DNA from: Candidatus Aminicenantota bacterium
GTDB taxonomy: Bacteria; Acidobacteriota; Aminicenantia; Aminicenantales; UBA4085
Assembly: GCA_016931595.1 (NCBI GenBank)
Contig: JAFGEN010000258.1
Location: 1-35,467 of the forward strand
Reading direction: 5' to 3'
Length of the DNA: 35,467 nucleotides
Position numbers and translations under genes: made by a program. Of the stretch, positions 21,532 through 30,797 are shown piece after piece. The notes below the pieces were generated by a model that saw nothing but the letters and a program-made list of their open reading frames with translations, was not told where the DNA came from and did not search any database. Each line of letters begins with the position of its first letter. The stretch's first letter is position 1.

Positions 21532-21561
21532 TTGACTTCTTTTGCGCGGCCGGGATATGCT
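21532..21561 (+). promoter_or_regulatory. Promoter for the M14 peptidase-like gene
   Basis: TTGACT (21532-21537) and TATGCT (21556-21561) are 18 bases apart. The predicted start near 21568 leaves a leader of about 50 bases before ATG 21619, ending in a GAGGAGG ribosome-binding site. Confidence 0.5.
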
Positions 21562-21618
21562 CCTCCCTTCACAATCGTTCTTCGACCCGTCCAAGATCTC
21601 ACCGAGGAGGCGAAGGCC

Positions 21619-23550
21619 ATGAAAAAAATCACCATCCGGACGGCCTTGGCGGCCGTCATCGCGGCGTCCGTTCTCTTGAGCGTTTCCGCCCAGGATTTCC
21701 CCAGGCGGGATTTCACCCCCGTCCCGTCCAAGGCCTACCAGGTCGGCGGCGTGCGGCATGGGGTCAGTTTCTTTCCCCGCTACGAGGGCGACATCATCAA
21801 GCCGAAGAAGCCGGGGACGATGGATTTTCTCCATTACCACACCTACGCCGAGGTGAACGAGTTCCTGGCCGCCTGGGCCAAGGAATATCCCGATCTTGTC
21901 GACCTGTATTCGGTCGCCAAATCATTCGAAGGCCGGGATATCCGGCAGATCACGATCACCAATAAAAAGACCGGTAAGGACACGGACAAACCGGCGATGT
22001 ACATCGAGGGGAACCGCCATTCCGGCGAAGTCACGGCGGCCGAAGCGGCCCTCTATTTTGCCTGGCACGTCTTGACCCAATACGGAAAAGACCCGGAGAT
22101 CACAAAGCTGGTCGACACCAGGGCCCTCTATGTCCGGGTGCAAAACAATCCCGACGGCTCCGAGCTCTATCTCAACACGGCCCAGTCGCTCCGGAGCACC
22201 GTCCGGCCCTATGACAACGACGGCGACGGCTTGTTGGACGAAGACCCGCCCGAGGACATCGATGGCGACGGCTTCATCCTTCAGATGCGGAAAAAAGTCG
22301 AACCGGGAAAAGGAACAATGACCATCGACCCCAACGACCCGACCGGGCGTCTGATGGTCCGGGCCGAACCGGGCAAGGGCGATTATATTGTCCAAGCTGA
22401 AGGCTGGGACAACGACGGCGACGGCCGGATCAACGAGGACGGGATCGGCGGCCTGGACCTCCACCGCAATTACCCCGAAAACTGGCGGCCGATGCCCGGG
22501 CAGGACGCCACCGGCCGGGGCTGGACCCAGGGCGGAGCCGGCGAGTACCCTCTTTCGGAAATCGAGACGCGGGCGGTGGTCCTCTTCCTGCTTCAACACC
22601 CCAACATCTCAGTCGTCCAGACCATGGACACGACCGTGCCGATGCTGCTCCACGGTCCTTCGACCAGCCGGATGGACGAGTCGATGTTCCCCGAGGACAT
22701 GAAGATTTACAAGTATTTCGACGAGGAAGGCAAGAAGCTCACCGGGTATGACCGGGCCGGCGACACTTATTTCGACTACTCGACCGGAAACCGGGGTTCC
22801 CGGATGATGACGGGCGGCCCCGGCGGAGCGGCCGGACGGCCGGCCCAGGCGCCGGAGCCGCTGTCGGGTTCGCCGCTTTTCGGCCACTCCCCCGATTTCG
22901 GCTACCTCTACTATGGGGCCGTTTGGTACGGAGACGAGCTCTGGAACGGGGGCCGGCTGCAGGATTATAACGGCGACGGCCGGGTCAGCGAGGCCGAACA
23001 GCTCCGTTATATCGACGAAAACCTGGGCGGCAGGTATTTCAAACCCTGGACCAAGGCCCTCCATCCGACCCTGGGCGAGGTTGAAATCGGCGGATTCAAC
23101 CCAAAGTACTGGAGACAGAACCCGCCCGTGGAACTCCTGGAAGAATGGGTGAAAAAAGAGGTCAATTTCAACCTTCTCCTTTATCAATCCCTGCCCCTCC
23201 CCCGCATTCAGGGAGCGGTCCTGCGGCCGGCGAAAAAAGAGAAAGGCGTCCTTGATCTGGTCGTGACCGTGGCCAACGAGGGCTTCCTGCCCACGGCCCT
23301 GAAGATGGCCGATCGGGTGAAGATCGTCCGTCCGGACAATATCACCATTACCCTGCCGAACGGCTTGGAGCTCGTTTCGGGCCGGGCCCGCCAGGAGATC
23401 GGATATCTCTCCGGCGGCCAGAAGAAAGATGTCGTCTTCAAAGTGAAAAGGACGGCGCCGGGTTCCGGCGAGCTGGACGTGGTCTTCAGCTCGACCCGGG
23501 GAGGCGTGGACAAGAAAACAATTCGTATCGAAACGCCGTCGGTTAAATAA
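21619..23550 (+). CDS. Secreted M14-type zinc carboxypeptidase homologue with calcium-loop motifs
   Basis: The 643-residue product has a signal peptide (MKKITIRTAL..., likely cut after VSA at about residue 24). A metallocarboxypeptidase domain follows with zinc-binding H134-SG-E137, NPDG at about 177-180 and DLHRNYPENW at about 280. It therefore probably trims peptides outside the cytoplasm. Four DxDG-type calcium loops are inserted (DNDGDGLLDED near 199, DIDGDG near 213, DNDGDGRINED near 264, and DYNGDGRVSEAE later). The segment where the third zinc ligand (a His) is expected reads VVQTMDTT, without histidine. Activity is therefore uncertain. I start at ATG 21619, with GAGGAGG eight bases upstream, not at 21532. 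A C-terminal beta-rich region (about 535-643) resembles an Ig-like accessory domain. Confidence 0.85.
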   Translation: MKKITIRTALAAVIAASVLLSVSAQDFPRRDFTPVPSKAYQVGGVRHGVSFFPRYEGDIIKPKKPGTMDFLHYHTYAEVNEFLAAWAKEYPDLVDLYSVAKSFEGRDIRQITITNKKTGKDTDKPAMYIEGNRHSGEVTAAEAALYFAWHVLTQYGKDPEITKLVDTRALYVRVQNNPDGSELYLNTAQSLRSTVRPYDNDGDGLLDEDPPEDIDGDGFILQMRKKVEPGKGTMTIDPNDPTGRLMVRAEPGKGDYIVQAEGWDNDGDGRINEDGIGGLDLHRNYPENWRPMPGQDATGRGWTQGGAGEYPLSEIETRAVVLFLLQHPNISVVQTMDTTVPMLLHGPSTSRMDESMFPEDMKIYKYFDEEGKKLTGYDRAGDTYFDYSTGNRGSRMMTGGPGGAAGRPAQAPEPLSGSPLFGHSPDFGYLYYGAVWYGDELWNGGRLQDYNGDGRVSEAEQLRYIDENLGGRYFKPWTKALHPTLGEVEIGGFNPKYWRQNPPVELLEEWVKKEVNFNLLLYQSLPLPRIQGAVLRPAKKEKGVLDLVVTVANEGFLPTALKMADRVKIVRPDNITITLPNGLELVSGRARQEIGYLSGGQKKDVVFKVKRTAPGSGELDVVFSSTRGGVDKKTIRIETPSVK

Positions 23551-23590: not shown

Positions 23591-23619
23591 GGAAGAAAGT
23601 CCCGCCGCCCGCGTCTAAT
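23591..23619 (+). promoter_or_regulatory. Predicted ECF-sigma promoter for the small secreted protein
   Basis: GGAAGAA (23591-23597) and CGTCTAAT (23612-23619) are separated by 14 bases. The same two elements with exactly the same spacing occur at 24233-24261 before the ECF sigma factor gene. GGAA-type -35 and CGTC-type -10 elements are characteristic of ECF sigma promoters. A transcript would begin near 23625, just before the ribosome-binding site. Confidence 0.55.
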
Positions 23620-23635
23620 AGCCGAAGGAGTCAAT

Positions 23636-24058
23636 ATGAAAAAAATCGCGCTTCTGTCGGCTTTGGTCTTTGGATTGGGCCTGGCGGCGCTGGCTGCGGT
23701 CAATGTCACCGGGGCCTGGGAGTTCACGATGAAGATGGGCGACCGGGAGATGAATCAGGACATGACCTTCGCCCAGGACGGCGAAAAGCTGACCGTGACC
23801 ATGACCCGGACGGGCCGTGACGGCAACGTCATGGAGTCCAAAGGGGAAGGAACGGTCAAGGGAAACGAGATCGAATGGAAAATCGTCCGCCAGGGACGGG
23901 ACGGCCAGGAAATGACCACCACCTATAAAGGGACCATCGCCGACGATAACAACATGAAAGGGACGATGGAAGGCGGCTTCGGGCGTCCCGGCGGCGGCGG
24001 CGGCGGCGGCGCCATGACTCCGCCCGAGTGGACGGCCGTCCGCAAGGCCAAATCGTAG
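23636..24058 (+). CDS. Small secreted beta-rich protein of unknown function
   Basis: The 140-residue product has a clear signal peptide (MKKIALLSALVFGLGLAALAA). The mature part alternates short beta-strands (VTGAWEFTMKMGDREM, TFAQDGEKLTVTMT, GEGTVKGNEIEWKI, YKGTIADDNNMKGTM). This resembles the small TGxW-type beta-barrel modules often attached to secreted hydrolases. A run of seven glycines follows, encoded by seven GGC codons, then AMTPPEWTAVRKAKS. AAGGAG precedes ATG 23636. An ECF-type promoter motif identical in spacing to that of the sigma operon lies upstream, and a strong terminator follows, so it is probably a monocistronic member of that regulon. No enzymatic residues are evident. Confidence 0.75.
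   Translation: MKKIALLSALVFGLGLAALAAVNVTGAWEFTMKMGDREMNQDMTFAQDGEKLTVTMTRTGRDGNVMESKGEGTVKGNEIEWKIVRQGRDGQEMTTTYKGTIADDNNMKGTMEGGFGRPGGGGGGGAMTPPEWTAVRKAKS
23990..24010 (+). repeat. (GGC)7 trinucleotide repeat inside a coding region
   Basis: Seven perfect GGC units encode the glycine run of the small secreted protein. Such tracts can change length by replication slippage, here without shifting the frame. Confidence 0.9.
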
Positions 24059-24090
24059 CACCCCCCTCCTTTTTTCATTCTCTCTCTTCG

Positions 24091-24123
24091 GGGCTCCCGC
24101 CGAAAGGCGGGGGCCTCTTTTTT
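24091..24123 (+). terminator. Intrinsic terminator after the small secreted protein gene
   Basis: GGCTCCCGCC pairs over ten positions (one G-U) with GGCGGGGGCC around a GAAA tetraloop and is followed by TCTTTTTT. It separates the secreted-protein gene from the sigma factor operon. Confidence 0.85.
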
Positions 24124-24142
24124 ATATCTGCCGGTTGGATTC

Positions 24143-24151
24143 TGCTATAAT
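24143..24151 (+). promoter_or_regulatory. Extended -10 housekeeping promoter upstream of the ECF operon
   Basis: TGC followed by a perfect TATAAT (24146-24151) forms an extended -10 element; no clear -35 is present. Transcription would start near 24158, about 135 bases before the sigma factor gene, and would run through the hairpin at 24175-24211. Confidence 0.5.
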
Positions 24152-24174
24152 GGCCCGGGCCCGCGAGGGACAAT

Positions 24175-24211
24175 CCCGTCCCGCCCCGGCGCCGCGACGG
24201 GGTTTATTTTT
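24175..24211 (+). terminator. Terminator-like leader hairpin between two promoters of the ECF operon
   Basis: CCCGTC (24175-24180) pairs with GACGGG (24196-24201) around a GC-rich loop that can itself pair through GGCGCC. GTTTATTTTT follows. It lies downstream of the extended -10 promoter and upstream of the ECF-type promoter, so it could attenuate basal transcription of the sigma operon. The base-paired stem is short, so the call is tentative. Confidence 0.35.
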
Positions 24212-24232
24212 GAGCCGACGAGTCCTTTCCGG

Positions 24233-24261
24233 GGAAGAATTATCCCGCCTCCGCGTCTAAT
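24233..24261 (+). promoter_or_regulatory. Predicted autoregulated ECF-sigma promoter of the sigma/efflux operon
   Basis: GGAAGAA (24233-24239), 14 bases, CGTCTAAT (24254-24261): the same motif and spacing as at 23591-23619. ECF sigma factors commonly drive their own operon, and the site is about 30 bases before the sigma gene. Only two instances were found in the window. Confidence 0.6.
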
Positions 24262-24292
24262 GGATGTCGGAGGATAATGAGCGTGAACGCGA

Positions 24293-24862
24293 ATGGACGA
24301 ACAGACGCTGGTCGAGCTGTCCCGCAACGGACGACGCGACGCCTTCGAACAGTTGGTGGTGATGTATAACCAAAAGGTCTTCGCCCTCGCTTACGGTTTC
24401 GTCAGGGACCGGGCGACGGCCGACGACCTGACCCAGGAGATTTTATTGAAAGTGTACCAGGCCCTTCCGTCGTTCCGGGTCGAGTCGGAATTCGGGACGT
24501 GGCTGTACCGGATCGCCGTCAACCATGTCAAGGACCATTTACGGAAAGCGTCCCGGCGCCGGACCGTCTCCCTGGACCAGGTCGGCGAAGGCCCGATGGC
24601 GGTCGACGGCGGGGCGGAGTCGCGCGTCCAGGCGAGCGAGGAGGAAAAACGCCGGCGCGAAGTCTTCCGGATGCTGGAGACCCTGCCGGACAAGTACCGG
24701 ATTATTCTCACCCTTCGAGACGTGGAAGGCCTTCCCTACGAAGAAGTCGCCCGGACGCTGGGGATCGCCCCGGGAACGGTCGATTCCCGCCTTCACCGGG
24801 CCCGGAAAATGCTTCGAAAGAAAATGTCGCCCTACCTCAGGGTGGAAGGAGGAAGACCATGA
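24293..24862 (+). CDS. ECF-family (RpoE-like) RNA polymerase sigma factor
   Basis: This is a 189-residue two-domain sigma factor that redirects RNA polymerase to stress promoters. Region 2 includes ADDLTQEILLKVYQALPSF and FGTWLYRIAVNHVKD (about 45-85). Region 4 has LPDKYRIILTLRDVEGLPYEEVA and a helix-turn-helix LGIAPGTVDSRLHRAR (about 125-180). ATG 24293 is the first possible start after an in-frame stop, but the GGAGG at 24269 is 19 bases away and better serves an overlapping upstream ATG at 24277. The gene overlaps its anti-sigma partner as ATGA. A matching promoter motif upstream suggests that it activates itself. Confidence 0.94.
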   Translation: MDEQTLVELSRNGRRDAFEQLVVMYNQKVFALAYGFVRDRATADDLTQEILLKVYQALPSFRVESEFGTWLYRIAVNHVKDHLRKASRRRTVSLDQVGEGPMAVDGGAESRVQASEEEKRRREVFRMLETLPDKYRIILTLRDVEGLPYEEVARTLGIAPGTVDSRLHRARKMLRKKMSPYLRVEGGRP

Positions 24863-25368
24863 ACTGCCGCAAGGCGGAGCGTTGGCTTCTTGCGTCCTTT
24901 GACCGGGACCTTCCCGCGGCCGACCGTGACATCCTGGAGGGGCATCTGAACGCGTGTTCCGCATGCCGGAAGAAGGCCGAGGAATATGTCATGATCCGCG
25001 GCCGCCTGGCCGGAGACCGGACCCCCGAACCGCTTCCTCATTTCTGGGAGCGGTTGGAGTCCCGCCTCATCGAATCCCGCTCGTCCGCTCCCGGGGCCGC
25101 CTTGGTCCGTCTCTGGACCCGGGCGATTCCCGTCTCCCTGTCGCTTCTGGCCGGATTCCTCGTCGCAACATTGTTCTTTCTCCCGCCCGTCCGGCCGGGC
25201 GATTCGACCGGGGCGGAAACCGCGGGCCTTTCCGGGTCCCAGACTCTCTTGCTGACCGACGGCAACCCAATCGCCGAGGCCGCCCCGATTTTCGAGGAAA
25301 GCCGGCGGGACGTGCGCAATCTCCAGGTCCTCTTCGCCGCCGTTGAACTTCCGGCGGGAAAACGGTGA
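24859..25368 (+). CDS. Membrane-bound anti-sigma factor with ZAS zinc finger
   Basis: The 169-residue protein starts MNCRKAERWLLA and has the HLNACSAC motif (His29, Cys33, Cys36), the HxxxCxxC zinc-binding anti-sigma signature. One transmembrane helix follows (about 90-109), then a short extracytoplasmic region. It probably holds the ECF sigma factor inactive at the inner membrane until an envelope signal releases it. The start at 24859 overlaps the sigma stop as ATGA; the ORF-track start at 24499 runs through the sigma gene and is rejected. The next gene begins within a few bases of its stop. Confidence 0.9.
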   Translation: MNCRKAERWLLASFDRDLPAADRDILEGHLNACSACRKKAEEYVMIRGRLAGDRTPEPLPHFWERLESRLIESRSSAPGAALVRLWTRAIPVSLSLLAGFLVATLFFLPPVRPGDSTGAETAGLSGSQTLLLTDGNPIAEAAPIFEESRRDVRNLQVLFAAVELPAGKR

Positions 25369-25370
25369 CG

Positions 25371-25883
25371 ATGATGAAACAATCCCGCCTCTGGATCGTG
25401 CTCTCGCTGGTCCTGGTCTTCGCCGCCGGCGCGGCCGCGGGCATTTTCGCCCAGCGCTGCTTGTTCAAATCGAAAGCCCCTCAGCGGACGCAGCAAAATC
25501 GCGGGCCTTCGCCGGCCGAGTGGGAAAAAAGCCTCGGCTTGACGGAAGAGCAAAAAACGCAAATCCACGAGATTTTTAAAAAAAGCGACGTCCGGATCGG
25601 CGAGCTCCGCTCGGATTATTACAAGCGGGTGGGCGAGATCCGGTCCCAGCTCCGCAAGGACATCAATGCCGTCCTGACGCCCGAGCAAAAGGCCAAGCAG
25701 GACGAGATGGAGAAAAAATTACGCGAGGCGCGGAAGAAGGACGCCGAACGCCGTTCGGCCGAGTCCGGCCCTCGCCCGAAGGACAGCCCTTCGAAGGAGA
25801 ACGCCAATGAAAAAGAAACTCGCGATCGGAGCAGTGATCCTGGTCATCGTAGCCGGGATTATCCTGGGTTTTTCCCTTTTTAA
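25371..25883 (+). CDS. Spy/CpxP-like periplasmic LTxxQ protein
   Basis: The product of about 170 residues has an N-terminal hydrophobic segment (signal anchor or signal peptide, about 6-28). A charged helical region follows with two LTxxQ motifs, LTEEQKTQ (about 57) and LTPEQKAK (about 102), as in the Spy/CpxP/heavy-metal-resistor family. Such proteins act as periplasmic chaperones or sensors of envelope stress. GTG 25365 would overlap the anti-sigma stop as GTGA; I prefer ATG 25371. The frame stays open past the start of the MacA-like gene, overlapping it by 77 bases and adding a basic, arginine-rich tail. Confidence 0.8.
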   Translation: MMKQSRLWIVLSLVLVFAAGAAAGIFAQRCLFKSKAPQRTQQNRGPSPAEWEKSLGLTEEQKTQIHEIFKKSDVRIGELRSDYYKRVGEIRSQLRKDINAVLTPEQKAKQDEMEKKLREARKKDAERRSAESGPRPKDSPSKENANEKETRDRSSDPGHRSRDYPGFFPF

Positions 25884-27222
25884 AAAGGACAAGACAACCG
25901 CCGACCAGTACCGGACCGCGGCCCTGACCAAGGGCGACATCGAGGCCCTGGTCGTTACCTCCGGGACGATCAACCCGGTCGATATCATCGATATCGGAGC
26001 CCAGGTGTCGGGCAAGATCATCAAGCTCCATGCCGACTTCAATTCAGTCGTTACGGCCGGCCAGATCGTGGCCGAGCTCGACCAGGAGATTCTCAAGTCC
26101 AAGGTCGAGCAGAACGAGGCCAGCTACCAAAGCCGGCAAGCCTCCGTGGAGCAGGCCAAGGTCACCCTGGAAAATGCCAAGAAAAAATGGGAGCGGACCC
26201 AGGACCTGTTCAGCCGCGAGCTCGTGTCCTTCGAGGAGAAGGAAAACGCCGAGGCCAATTTCATCGGGGCCAAGGTCGGCCTTCAGCAGGCCGAGGCCTC
26301 CCTGGCCCAACAGAAGGCCGCCCTCGAACAGAGCAAGGTCGACATGTCCTACGCCGTCATCCGCTCCCCCATCGACGGGACGGTCATCACCCGCAAGGTC
26401 AATGTCGGTCAAACCGTGATTTCGAGCATGAATCCTCCTGTATTGTTCCAGGTCGCGAGCGACCTGACCAAGATGCAGGTCAAATGCGCGGTCGACGAGG
26501 CGGATATCGGCCGGGTCCAGGAAAGCCAGAAGGTCCGTTTCTCGGTCGACGCCTTCCAGGGCGAAGTCTTCAACGGCGAGATCCTCCAGGTCCGCAACTC
26601 CCCCACAACGTCCCAGAACGTCGTCACGTACGAGGTCATCATCAACGCCTCAAACCCGGAGAAAAAGCTCCGGCCGGGGATGACCGCGACCGTCTCGATC
26701 ATCACCGGCGAAGCCCGGGGCGTCATCAAGATCCCCAACGCCGCCCTTCGCTTCACGCCCAACCTTCCCAAGGAGGAAATGGACAAGCTCCTGGAGGAAC
26801 TGCGGGCTTCCATGCAGGCCAAGCGGGGAGCCGACGGTCAACCCCAGCCGGCCGGAGAGCAGCCGGAAGCCGTTCAACCCCAGACGGGCGGCCAGCAACC
26901 GGCAGGCGCCCAGGTCCAGGTCCCCCTCGGCCGGCGGCCCAATTTCGCCCAGATGACGCCCGAGCAGCGCCAGCAATTCGCCCAGAGCCGCGCCCGCCGT
27001 TCCAGCAGCCAGGTCTGGATTCTCGAAGCCGACGGCAAGATCCGGCCCGTTCCGGTCCGGACCGGCGTGACCGACAATTCCTTTACCGCTCTCGTCGGCG
27101 GGAACCTCGAGGAAGGGATGATGATCATCCTGGGAGTCGGAACCGGCGCCTCGACCACCGGCCAGAACCAGACGCGCGGCGGCATGCCGGGCATGATGAT
27201 GATGGGGGGACCGGGCCGCTGA
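25807..27222 (+). CDS. macA: MacA-like periplasmic adaptor of a tripartite efflux pump
   Basis: This membrane-fusion protein joins the inner-membrane ABC transporter to the outer-membrane channel. The 471 residues include an N-terminal anchor (about 5-23), a lipoyl half (IGAQVSGKIIKLHADFNSVV), a long alpha-hairpin (about 95-180) and the second lipoyl half (VIRSPIDGTVITRKVNVGQTV). A beta-barrel domain follows (to about 310). Compared with E. coli MacA (371 residues) it has an insertion of about 80 residues (about 321-400), rich in Gln, Pro and Gly and including MTPEQRQQFAQ, similar to the LTxxQ motif next door. The C-terminus is Met/Gly-rich (MPGMMMMGGPGR). AAGGAGAA precedes ATG 25807. Confidence 0.9.
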   Translation: MKKKLAIGAVILVIVAGIILGFSLFKKDKTTADQYRTAALTKGDIEALVVTSGTINPVDIIDIGAQVSGKIIKLHADFNSVVTAGQIVAELDQEILKSKVEQNEASYQSRQASVEQAKVTLENAKKKWERTQDLFSRELVSFEEKENAEANFIGAKVGLQQAEASLAQQKAALEQSKVDMSYAVIRSPIDGTVITRKVNVGQTVISSMNPPVLFQVASDLTKMQVKCAVDEADIGRVQESQKVRFSVDAFQGEVFNGEILQVRNSPTTSQNVVTYEVIINASNPEKKLRPGMTATVSIITGEARGVIKIPNAALRFTPNLPKEEMDKLLEELRASMQAKRGADGQPQPAGEQPEAVQPQTGGQQPAGAQVQVPLGRRPNFAQMTPEQRQQFAQSRARRSSSQVWILEADGKIRPVPVRTGVTDNSFTALVGGNLEEGMMIILGVGTGASTTGQNQTRGGMPGMMMMGGPGR

Positions 27223-27247: not shown

Positions 27248-27931
27248 ATGGACAACAACATCATCCGGCTGGAGAACCTGACCAAGACTTATCACGTCGG
27301 GGAAACCGAGGTCCGGGCCCTCCGCGGGGTGAGCAACGTCGTTCCGAAAGGGGATTTCGTGGCCATCATGGGGGCTTCGGGTTCGGGCAAGTCGACGATG
27401 ATGAACATCATCGGCTGCCTGGACAAGCCGACGACGGGCCAGTACCTCCTGGACGGCGTGGACATCGCCGGGCTGAACCGAAACGAGCTGGCCGAAATCC
27501 GCAACCGCAAGATCGGCTTTGTCTTTCAATCGTTCAACCTTCTGGCCCGGACGACGGCCCTGGAGAATGTCGAGCTTCCCCTCGTTTACGCCAACGTTCC
27601 TTACAAGGAAATGACGTCACGGGCGATGGCCTCGCTGGCCAAGGTCGGGCTGAAAGGGCGGGAAACACATAAAACCAACCAGCTTTCGGGCGGCGAACAG
27701 CAGCGGGTGGCCATCGCCCGGGCTTTGCTCAACAACCCCCAACTCATCCTAGCCGACGAGCCGACGGGAAACCTCGACTCGCGGACCAGCGACGAGATCA
27801 TGAACATCTTTGAAACGCTCAACCACGAGCAGGGCATCAGCATCGTCATGGTGACCCATGAGCCGGACATCGGCTCACGGGCCAAGCGCCGGATCCATAT
27901 GAAGGACGGCCTCATCGTCCGCGAGGATTAA
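27248..27931 (+). CDS. MacB-type ABC transporter ATP-binding protein
   Basis: The 227-residue ATPase has Walker A MGASGSGKSTMMNIIG, Q-loop IGFVFQSFNLL, signature LSGGEQQRVAIARALL, Walker B LILADEPTGNLD and the switch segment VMVTHEPD. These are typical of the MacB/LolD subfamily, whose transporters work by mechanotransmission. In E. coli MacB this domain is fused to the permease; here it is a separate polypeptide. ATG 27248 follows the adaptor gene by 25 bases. The permease follows after 11 bases. Confidence 0.93.
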   Translation: MDNNIIRLENLTKTYHVGETEVRALRGVSNVVPKGDFVAIMGASGSGKSTMMNIIGCLDKPTTGQYLLDGVDIAGLNRNELAEIRNRKIGFVFQSFNLLARTTALENVELPLVYANVPYKEMTSRAMASLAKVGLKGRETHKTNQLSGGEQQRVAIARALLNNPQLILADEPTGNLDSRTSDEIMNIFETLNHEQGISIVMVTHEPDIGSRAKRRIHMKDGLIVRED

Positions 27932-27942
27932 GGAGAACCGGC

Positions 27943-29169
27943 ATGAACTTCTTTCGAATCTTGAAAGTCTCCCTCCGGGCACTGGCCCGGAATAAAATGA
28001 GGACCTTCCTGACCTGTCTGGGGATCATCATCGGCGTGGCCGCGGTCATCGCCATGGTCAGCATCGGCTCGGGAGCCCGGGCGGCCGTCGAATCGCGGTT
28101 CGAATCCATGGGGACCAACCTCATTTCTGTCCGCGGCGGCAACCGGAGCATGGGCGGCGTTCGGACCCAATCCGGCCAGTATAACCGGCTGACGGCCGAA
28201 GACGCCGAGGCCATTGCCCTTCTCCCCTCGGTCGAGGCGGTTTCTCCCAGCGTCAGTAGTCGGGCCCAGGTCATTTACGGCAACAAGAACTGGAACACAT
28301 CGGTCCAGGGCGCGGGAGCCGACTATCCGACCGTCCGAAAGTGGGAAATCGAGTTCGGGTCGTTCTTCGACGAGAGCATGGTCCGGTCGGGGGCCAAGGT
28401 GGCCGTCATCGGGACCGACATCCGGGACAACCTCTTCGAGGAAGGGGAGGACCCGATCGGCAAGACCGTCCGGATCAACCGGGTTCCCTTCCTTATCCTC
28501 GGCATCCTCAAGGACAAAGGCGAATCGGGCGGCTTTGGAAGCCGCGACGACACCATCATCGTCCCCTTCACCACCGCCATCCGGCGCCTCCAGCGGTCCG
28601 ATTACCTGAATTCGATCGACGTTTCGGCGGCCTCCGCCGATCTGACCACGCAAGCCCAGGTGGAAATCACCGACCTTCTTCGAAACCGCCATCGCATTCC
28701 CGAGGGCGGAACCGACGATTTCACCGTTTCGAACATGGCCGAGATCGCCGAAGGCGCGGCCGAGGCGACCGGCATCCTGACGCTCCTCCTCGGGTCGATC
28801 GCCTCGATCTCGCTGCTCGTCGGCGGGATCGGGATCATGAACATCATGCTGGTCTCGGTGACCGAGCGCATCCGGGAAATCGGCATCCGGATGTCCATCG
28901 GGGCCAAGGAGCGGGACATCCTCGTCCAGTTCCTGGCCGAGGCCATCGTTCTCAGCCTCCTGGGCGGAGTCCTGGGAATCGGCCTGGGGATCGGCATCTC
29001 CAAGCTGCTCAAGTACATCTCGATTTTTTCCTCCATCCAGACCGTGGTGTCCTGGAGCTCGGTCTTCCTGGCCTTCGCTTTTTCCGGGTCGGTGGGGGTT
29101 TTCTTCGGATTCTACCCGGCCCGGAAGGCCTCCAAGCTCGACCCGATCGAAGCCTTGCGCTACGAATAA
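27943..29169 (+). CDS. MacB-type ABC transporter permease
   Basis: The 408-residue protein has the MacB/FtsX layout: one N-terminal transmembrane helix (about 20-45, including FLTCLGIIIGVAAVIAM) and a large periplasmic domain (about 50-280). Three C-terminal helices follow (about 285-400, including LLLGSIASISLLVGGIGIMNIMLV, split here by GIGIMNIMLVSVTERIREIG). The sequence ends with PARKASKLDPIEALRYE, the family's characteristic C-terminus. It should use the adjacent ATPase and the MacA-like adaptor to push substrates from the periplasm through the TolC-like channel. Candidate substrates are antibiotics, peptides or lipopeptides; none can be chosen from sequence. Confidence 0.93.
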   Translation: MNFFRILKVSLRALARNKMRTFLTCLGIIIGVAAVIAMVSIGSGARAAVESRFESMGTNLISVRGGNRSMGGVRTQSGQYNRLTAEDAEAIALLPSVEAVSPSVSSRAQVIYGNKNWNTSVQGAGADYPTVRKWEIEFGSFFDESMVRSGAKVAVIGTDIRDNLFEEGEDPIGKTVRINRVPFLILGILKDKGESGGFGSRDDTIIVPFTTAIRRLQRSDYLNSIDVSAASADLTTQAQVEITDLLRNRHRIPEGGTDDFTVSNMAEIAEGAAEATGILTLLLGSIASISLLVGGIGIMNIMLVSVTERIREIGIRMSIGAKERDILVQFLAEAIVLSLLGGVLGIGLGIGISKLLKYISIFSSIQTVVSWSSVFLAFAFSGSVGVFFGFYPARKASKLDPIEALRYE

Positions 29170-29225: not shown

Positions 29226-30797
29226 ATGAACATCCGGAAAGGAACCGCCGTTCTCGGCGCCATTGTTCTCCTGGCTGGAATTTGTCCGGCCCAGGATCCG
29301 CAAAAAACCATGCAGCTGACCCTGGACGAGTGCATCGTCCGGGCCCTGCAGCGCAACATTTCCATCCAGGTCGCCGTGCTCTCGCCCCAGAACTCCGAGT
29401 TGTCTGTGCAGAAGGCCCGGGAAAAATTCCTGCCGACGATGGCCTTCACCTACTCGCGCCGCAACTCCGAGAACGCCTCCTATTCCTGGCTCGAATCCCA
29501 GGGCACGACGCTCTCGGAATCGGGAAGCTTATCGGCCCAGGTTCGGGAAACGATCCCGCTGGGAGGGACATTGACCCTGAGCATGAACTCGAATTTCACG
29601 GATACCAACCAGACCGGAACGACGATCAATCCCCGCTATAACAACCAGCTCCAGCTCTCCTTCAGCCAGCCGCTGCTTCGGGATTTCGGAGTGAAGTGGA
29701 CGCAGCGGGACATCGTCGTCGCCCGGAACAACCTGGATGTTTCCGAGATCCAGTTCGCCAAAACCGTCCAGGACACAATTTACAACGTTGTCCAGGCTTA
29801 CTGGAACCTGGTCTACACGATTGAAAACCTCAAGGTCCAGCAAAAATCGCTCGCTCTGGCCAAAGACAGCCTGGCCAAAAACCAGCGGTCCGTCGAAATC
29901 GGGACCTTGGCCCCGATGGATGTCCTGGCCGCCGAGAGCGAGGTCGCCAGCCGCGAGGCCAGCATCCTTTCGGCCGAGGCGGCCGTCAAGGCGGCCGAGG
30001 ACCTGATCAAAAACATTTTGAACTTCACTCCCGAGGAGGAAGCGGGCCTTCGGGAAATCACGGCCCTCGACACGCCGCGGTTCGACGAGAGGAAAATCGA
30101 AGTCGACCAGGCCCTGGCCATCGCCATGGACAAGCGGCCCGACCTTCGAATGTCGCGGATCAACCTCAAGACCGAAGATTTAAACCTCGGCTATGCCAAA
30201 AATCAGCTCCTCCCCAACCTCAGCCTGAGCGCGTCTTATACCAGCCCGGGCGTTTCGGGAACGCGCCTGATCTATGACAGCCAGTACTTCGGCAACGTCA
30301 TCGACACGATTCCAGGATACCGGTCGGACGCATGGAAGGACGTCTTCGGCTTCAAGTACCAGAATTGGAACATCTCCCTCAATCTCGACGTCCCCTTGAG
30401 CAATATTCTGTCCAAGGCCTCCTATGCCCAGGCCCAGATCTCGATGAAGCAGGCCCTGCTCAACATGAAAAGCACCGAGCAGGCCACGGTCCTGGAGATC
30501 CGCAACGCCGTCCGCAACCTTCAGACCTCTTTCAAACAGGTCCAGGCTTACAAGCTCTCCCGCGAATTGGCCGAGAAGAAGCTGGCGGCCGAGGAGGAAA
30601 AGCTTCGGGTCGGATTGAGCACCAATTACACCGTCCTCCAGTACCAGCGCGACTTGACGACCGCCCTGGTCCAGGAGCTGAAGTCGATCATCGACTACAA
30701 TGTCTCCCAAGCCGGGCTGGAGCGGTCGATGGGGACGCTGCTCGAATCCAAGAACATCCGACTGGCCGACCTTCTCAACGTCGGCGTGTCCAGATAA
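29226..30797 (+). CDS. TolC-family outer-membrane efflux channel
   Basis: The 523-residue product has a signal peptide (MNIRKGTAVLGAIVLLAG..., likely cut after PAQ). It then has the two-fold repeated outer-membrane efflux protein architecture: LTLDECIVRALQRNISIQ at the start of the first repeat, long helical coiled-coil stretches (VVQAYWNLVYTIENLKVQQKS; ALAIAMDKRPDLRMS) and beta segments for the barrel. It should form the trimeric exit duct for the MacA/MacB-like pump encoded upstream. I start at ATG 29226, with AAGGAG upstream, not at 28341, which lies inside the permease gene in another frame. A strong terminator follows and closes the operon. Confidence 0.93.
   Translation: MNIRKGTAVLGAIVLLAGICPAQDPQKTMQLTLDECIVRALQRNISIQVAVLSPQNSELSVQKAREKFLPTMAFTYSRRNSENASYSWLESQGTTLSESGSLSAQVRETIPLGGTLTLSMNSNFTDTNQTGTTINPRYNNQLQLSFSQPLLRDFGVKWTQRDIVVARNNLDVSEIQFAKTVQDTIYNVVQAYWNLVYTIENLKVQQKSLALAKDSLAKNQRSVEIGTLAPMDVLAAESEVASREASILSAEAAVKAAEDLIKNILNFTPEEEAGLREITALDTPRFDERKIEVDQALAIAMDKRPDLRMSRINLKTEDLNLGYAKNQLLPNLSLSASYTSPGVSGTRLIYDSQYFGNVIDTIPGYRSDAWKDVFGFKYQNWNISLNLDVPLSNILSKASYAQAQISMKQALLNMKSTEQATVLEIRNAVRNLQTSFKQVQAYKLSRELAEKKLAAEEEKLRVGLSTNYTVLQYQRDLTTALVQELKSIIDYNVSQAGLERSMGTLLESKNIRLADLLNVGVSR

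Follow-up and report, generated by a model that had tools for sequence, protein, structure and literature searches.

The window analysed here is a stretch of 35,467 nucleotides from a Candidatus Aminicenantota bacterium, and it carries an operon headed by an ECF sigma factor gene and preceded by the gene of a small secreted protein (SEC). All elements from the first promoter motif to the outer membrane channel gene are located on the + strand. SEC (23636–24058) is a protein of 140 residues, predicted to contain a signal helix and an 8-stranded lipocalin-like β-barrel (pLDDT 84). The predicted structure matches β-barrels, a domain of quinohemoprotein amine dehydrogenase and lipocalins, and a search of the sequence against Pfam matched no family. 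A strong intrinsic terminator with a 12-bp stem and a T run (24090–24123) separates SEC from the sigma factor gene. Just 5′ of SEC is a gene for an M14 zinc carboxypeptidase (21532–23550), for which a start at 21620 is likelier, being preceded by a good Shine-Dalgarno sequence. Rfam models matched the window once, at a tRNA gene (RF00005, 10196–10267).

The sigma factor (24293–24862, 189 amino acids) contains the Sigma70_r2 and Sigma70_r4_2 domains. It scores above the cut-off of TIGR02937 and no region 3 model matched, which places it among the ECF (group IV) sigma factors. The closest solved structure is that of RpoE from E. coli (1or7), and the score against the RpoE equivalog TIGR02939 is below the cut-off (133.5 vs 236.15 bits). 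Two further marks of an ECF system are present, a cognate anti-sigma gene adjoining the sigma gene and, judging by sequence and conservation, a candidate autoregulated GGAA/CGTC promoter. The anti-sigma factor (24859–25368), whose start overlaps the sigma stop codon (ATGA), is above the cut-off of Pfam zf-HC2. It has the zinc motif (HxxxCxxC, here HLNACSACR) and, as a hydrophobic segment, the inner-membrane anchor of class I zf-HC2 anti-sigma factors.

The next gene (25374–25883) encodes a membrane-anchored Spy/CpxP-like (LTXXQ) periplasmic protein with a transmembrane helix and a helical hairpin, which is a possible sensor. Its Spy/LTXXQ match sits at the cut-off, and a structure search returned nothing significant. 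It overlaps by 77 bp (25807–25883) the gene of a MacA-like periplasmic adaptor of the HlyD family (25807–27222); the two are read in different frames, so the C-terminal tail of the Spy-like protein is coded within the start of the adaptor. A MacB/LolD-like ABC ATPase (27248–27931), a MacB-like permease (27943–29169) and a TolC-family outer membrane channel (29226–30797) complete the operon.

The motif GGAAGAA-N14-CGTCTAA occurs in the window only as P1, in front of SEC (23591–23618), and as P2, in front of the sigma operon (24233–24260), with a T following CGTCTAA in both; the number expected from 100 dinucleotide shuffles is 0. The distance from the −10 element to the ATG is 17 bp for SEC (23636) and 32 bp for the sigma gene (24293). 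The initial annotation had reported exactly these two occurrences, each a short distance upstream of a start codon, and was correct on both counts. When up to three mismatches are allowed the window contains 9 matches against 5.0 expected, and the two perfect copies alone stand out. In the whole 2.93-Mb genome (87% complete) there is only one further perfect match (G000:C313:18146), upstream of a gene for a protein with a signal peptide. All three perfect matches lie shortly 5′ of a plausible start codon, which disposes of the concern, raised with the original proposal, that the motif might be frequent inside coding regions. The identical spacing described there holds for the two window copies but is not strictly fixed in the Aminicenantales, where N14 is the commonest, N15 is common and other lengths between 11 and 18 are rare (about six exceptions to N14 and N15 among the matches listed, by hand count).

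Most of 59 relatives yielded an orthologue of the sigma factor, usually at 46–83% identity and in a few at 41–43%; its paralogues do not exceed about 40% and have much weaker E-values. When the motif and the sigma start were combined in one search pattern, 71 of 94 genomes (31 of 35 genera) gave a match and the reversed control gave none; the motif is present in 49 sigma leaders at oriented loci. In a subset of the orthologue loci it lies 57–63 bp 5′ of the sigma ATG. This conservation at a fixed position argues for the proposal that the sigma factor drives its own operon, and answers the other concern raised with that proposal, that the motif might be missing upstream of sigma orthologues. 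The gene order sigma, anti-sigma (zf-HC2), Spy-like, HlyD, ABC, MacB is kept across the orthologue loci examined, within the limits set by the ends of contigs or retrieved stretches.

SEC is located 5′ of the sigma gene in families f1, f3 and f4 and in part of f5. Of the 28 genomes in which the two genes adjoin, about 18 have an N14 or N15 promoter before the SEC orthologue, consistent with the suggestion that the secreted protein belongs to the same regulon. In genus g13 (G021, G028 and G055; loci L115, L116 and L110) the sigma gene has no motif in front of it, and an N15 motif is retained further upstream, in G021 and G028 before SEC. The sigma factor of this genus may be transcribed from the SEC promoter. 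The promoter loss at the sigma gene of g13, the N15 class and the sigma leader architecture described below all go beyond the initial annotation. In another genus, g10, an M14 homologue (67–74% identical) is found directly 5′ of the sigma gene, and in some relatives the motif precedes M14 genes at other loci.

The slightly relaxed motif GGAAGAW-N14-CGTCTAA gives 107 matches in the 59 genomes, compared with 3 for the reversed control. Outside the sigma and adjacent SEC positions 54 matches were retrieved, and for 48 of them a downstream gene could be used. The products of 47 of these 48 genes have a signal or membrane segment at the N terminus, as called by a simple hydrophobicity rule with no matched background set; the sole exception may be a mis-chosen frame, with a signal-bearing start nearby. 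The recurring families are HlyD (7), OEP/TolC (6), M16 (5), M14 (4), DUF5916/CBM9 (4) and M28 (2). The motif thus appears to lead to further regulon members, as had been predicted, and these are of the export and envelope type.

In the source genome, matches with one or two mismatches are found 5′ of genes for a TolC-like protein (C48), a DYIRTEI-type exported protein (C200) and a sulfatase (C123), all three similar to targets of the exact motif in relatives. One match with a single mismatch lies 5′ of an ABC ATPase gene and another within a reading frame, so that mismatched matches are not all targets. The motif is also repeatedly located 5′ of genes for an exported family of about 430–470 residues around NYIKTEIPFVNYVRDRKEADVHVL (L174:19–1356 on the − strand, L117, L118, L121, L158 and L162), and two members scanned singly had no Pfam match.

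The leader of the sigma gene contains an inverted repeat (24248–24273), a potential RNA hairpin. Its left arm (24248–24258) overlaps the spacer and the −10 element of P2, and its right arm (24262–24273) includes a Shine-Dalgarno sequence GGAGG (24269–24273), 19 nt 5′ of the sigma ATG; across the leaders this distance is 18–22 nt. At least six pairs enclosing the −10 element are found in 71 of 72 sigma leaders, and the mean fold z is −2.28 compared with −0.11 for 51 other promoters with the same motif. Folding is weaker when the two arms come from different genera (mean rank 0.23 vs 0.5 expected). The covariation score of the hairpin, 0.278 against 0.173 for shuffled alignments, is reached by none of 500 shuffles and also exceeds the slid controls; the underlying counts are inflated by relatedness of the sequences, and the covariance-model alignment that was also used leans towards the given structure. 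RNAalifold on a MAFFT alignment of the leaders gave no consensus pairs, probably because the register of the arms shifts in genus g15.

In 66 of 70 leaders (25 ± 4 after shuffling) a start codon follows the Shine-Dalgarno sequence at 4–11 nt; counted by genus, this holds for 26 of 30 (10.6 ± 2.5 after shuffling). The first base of this codon varies between A, G and T, while TG is constant. In the window the resulting out-of-frame upstream ORF (24277–24369) begins with ATG at 24277 or GTG at 24283, and its stop codon (24367–24369) lies within the sigma gene. The hairpin or the upstream start is missing in a few genomes.

Several roles for the upstream start were considered. The codon never opens the sigma frame, and an in-frame alternative start of the sigma factor is ruled out, as the four SD-proximal starts that are in frame reach a stop codon before the sigma ATG. 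A programmed frameshift into the sigma gene is likewise ruled out, since genera differ in whether the start is in frame +1 or +2, and a conserved upstream peptide is not supported since the frames differ. Termination and reinitiation at the sigma ATG is unlikely, because in most genomes the upstream ORF runs 42–101 nt into the sigma gene before it stops. The offset changes about 8 times on the sigma tree, with a change of frame in about 4 cases and never to the sigma frame; this is only suggestive of selection against that frame.

A second promoter may serve the sigma operon from further upstream. The extended −10 element TGCTATAAT (24143–24151) resembles a housekeeping promoter; it is not listed by the consensus promoter scan, which requires a −35 element. 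Extended −10 elements are present upstream of the ECF promoter in 14 of 49 regions (0.2 in shuffled sequences) and TA[TAC]AAT in 36 of 49 (9.2 in shuffled sequences). Transcription from an ECF promoter is expected to start 5–9 nt 3′ of the −10 element. A message from P2 would therefore be without the left arm, and a message begun upstream would have both arms. Across 48 genomes the predicted openness of the Shine-Dalgarno sequence rises from 0.09 in the long message to 0.41 in the short one; in the leader of the source genome itself the sequence is predicted to be paired in both.

The leader could also have no regulatory role, with the sigma ATG initiated without a Shine-Dalgarno sequence and GGAGG and the out-of-frame start being incidental. 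Indeed, some paralogous ECF genes in the genome have no clear Shine-Dalgarno sequence either, although the paralogues are a poor control for its use, as many are without one. The excess of SD-proximal starts over shuffled leaders and the constancy of TG speak against such an incidental origin, which we regard as unlikely, if still deserving some weight.

There is a smaller chance that the inverted repeat is the DNA operator of a repressor and not an RNA hairpin. The −10 region lies at the centre of the repeat, and a protein bound there would block the promoter. An operator would be expected to keep its sequence, whereas the arms differ between families with pairing kept and frequent G-U pairs; moreover, the repeat is missing from the other regulon promoters, as their fold z indicates.

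As for the regulon as a whole, the promoters might be real but read by another ECF sigma factor, or by several overlapping ones, the linked sigma factor being merely one target. The genome has about 22 ECF-like genes, many ECF groups share GGAA/CGTC elements, and G047 (79% complete) has motif matches while a close sigma orthologue was not found in it. Against this, the motif is bound to the sigma operon in the 31 genera mentioned above, the usual sign of ECF autoregulation, and in G038 (91% complete) and G039 (82%) neither a close sigma orthologue nor the motif was found, which together make control by other sigma factors improbable. That the two copies in the window arose by chance in GC-rich DNA is refuted by their conservation, as well as by the shuffles, the rarity in the genome, the reversed control and the export-gene targets, and has next to no probability.

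Very probably, the sigma factor of this locus controls its own transcription together with an ECF regulon of envelope and efflux functions, a system that is ordinary in kind and for which the comparative support is strong. What the sequences show is the motif, where it lies, how rare and how conserved it is, and that its targets carry an export signature; that the sigma factor binds and activates, and what signal it answers to, is inferred. The sigma factor would recognize GGAAGA(A/T)-N14/15-CGTCTAA, with region 4 reading GGAA and region 2 reading CGTC, by analogy with the E. coli sigma-E family. In the resting cell it would be held by the membrane zf-HC2 anti-sigma factor, and the anchored Spy/CpxP-like protein probably detects an insult to the envelope or modulates the anti-sigma factor. 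Once freed, the sigma factor would turn on P2 in a positive loop that yields the sigma factor, the anti-sigma factor, the sensor and the MacA-ABC-MacB-TolC efflux system. It would also turn on P1, giving the secreted lipocalin-like protein, and dispersed envelope genes for further TolC and HlyD proteins, for M16, M14 and M28 peptidases, for DUF5916 proteins and for a sulfatase.

A second layer of control, suggested by covariation and codon conservation in the leader, is judged separately from the regulon and has about an even chance of being correct. Transcripts from the upstream housekeeping promoter would fold the hairpin and hide the Shine-Dalgarno sequence, while those from P2 would begin inside the hairpin and leave it more open. 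Even when open, the Shine-Dalgarno sequence would first serve the out-of-frame start, so that translation of the sigma factor would be damped. The fuller reading, in which the ECF −10 region itself is the 5′ arm of the masking hairpin and the unmasked Shine-Dalgarno sequence serves an out-of-frame decoy, in a layout conserved across the order, is more tentative, and we hold it at somewhat below even.

The regulon proposed here is specific and testable in the Aminicenantales (Acidobacteriota), which are represented here almost solely by metagenome assemblies, and throughout the order its motif leads to genes for efflux, peptidases and secreted proteins. If the proposed reading of the leader is true, the promoter from which an mRNA originates would decide how well the sigma factor is translated, a dependence built into the promoter itself, and this would bear on how autoregulated sigma factors escape runaway activation.

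The sigma-E system of E. coli (rpoE-rseABC) is autoregulated, has a membrane anti-sigma factor in the operon, uses a GGAA-type −35 element and controls envelope genes. The present locus is similar in that an ECF sigma factor and a membrane anti-sigma factor share one operon, with a GGAA-type −35 element and envelope targets, but here the anti-sigma factor is of the zf-HC2 type and efflux genes lie within the operon. The rpoE operon is served by several promoters and encodes the leader peptide RseD (PMC8595263), a partial parallel to the present leader, with a different geometry. An RseD-type ORF ends at the sigma start and couples translation, whereas the ORF in the present leader runs out of frame into the sigma gene.

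The CnrYXH-type ECF systems of Cupriavidus combine a sigma factor, an anti-sigma factor, an anchored periplasmic helical protein and a tripartite efflux system. Comparable components are found here, and CnrH is also a sequence match of the sigma factor (4cxf). However, the efflux system is a MacA/MacB/TolC ABC transporter and not an RND pump, and the only family matched by the Spy-like protein is Spy/LTXXQ, with no metal-sensor family among its matches, which sets the locus apart from the CnrYXH type with its RND-type metal efflux and metal-binding CnrX sensor.

Translational masking in transcripts initiated upstream has been described for phage T4 genes. As in that case, a hairpin confined to the longer transcripts would occlude the ribosome binding site, but here one arm of the hairpin would be the −10 region of the autoregulated promoter itself. 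No ECF example of such a layout was found in the openly accessible literature, which is weak evidence because most subscription papers fall outside it. The regulon is a further case of a known type, and the new part is the layout of its leader.
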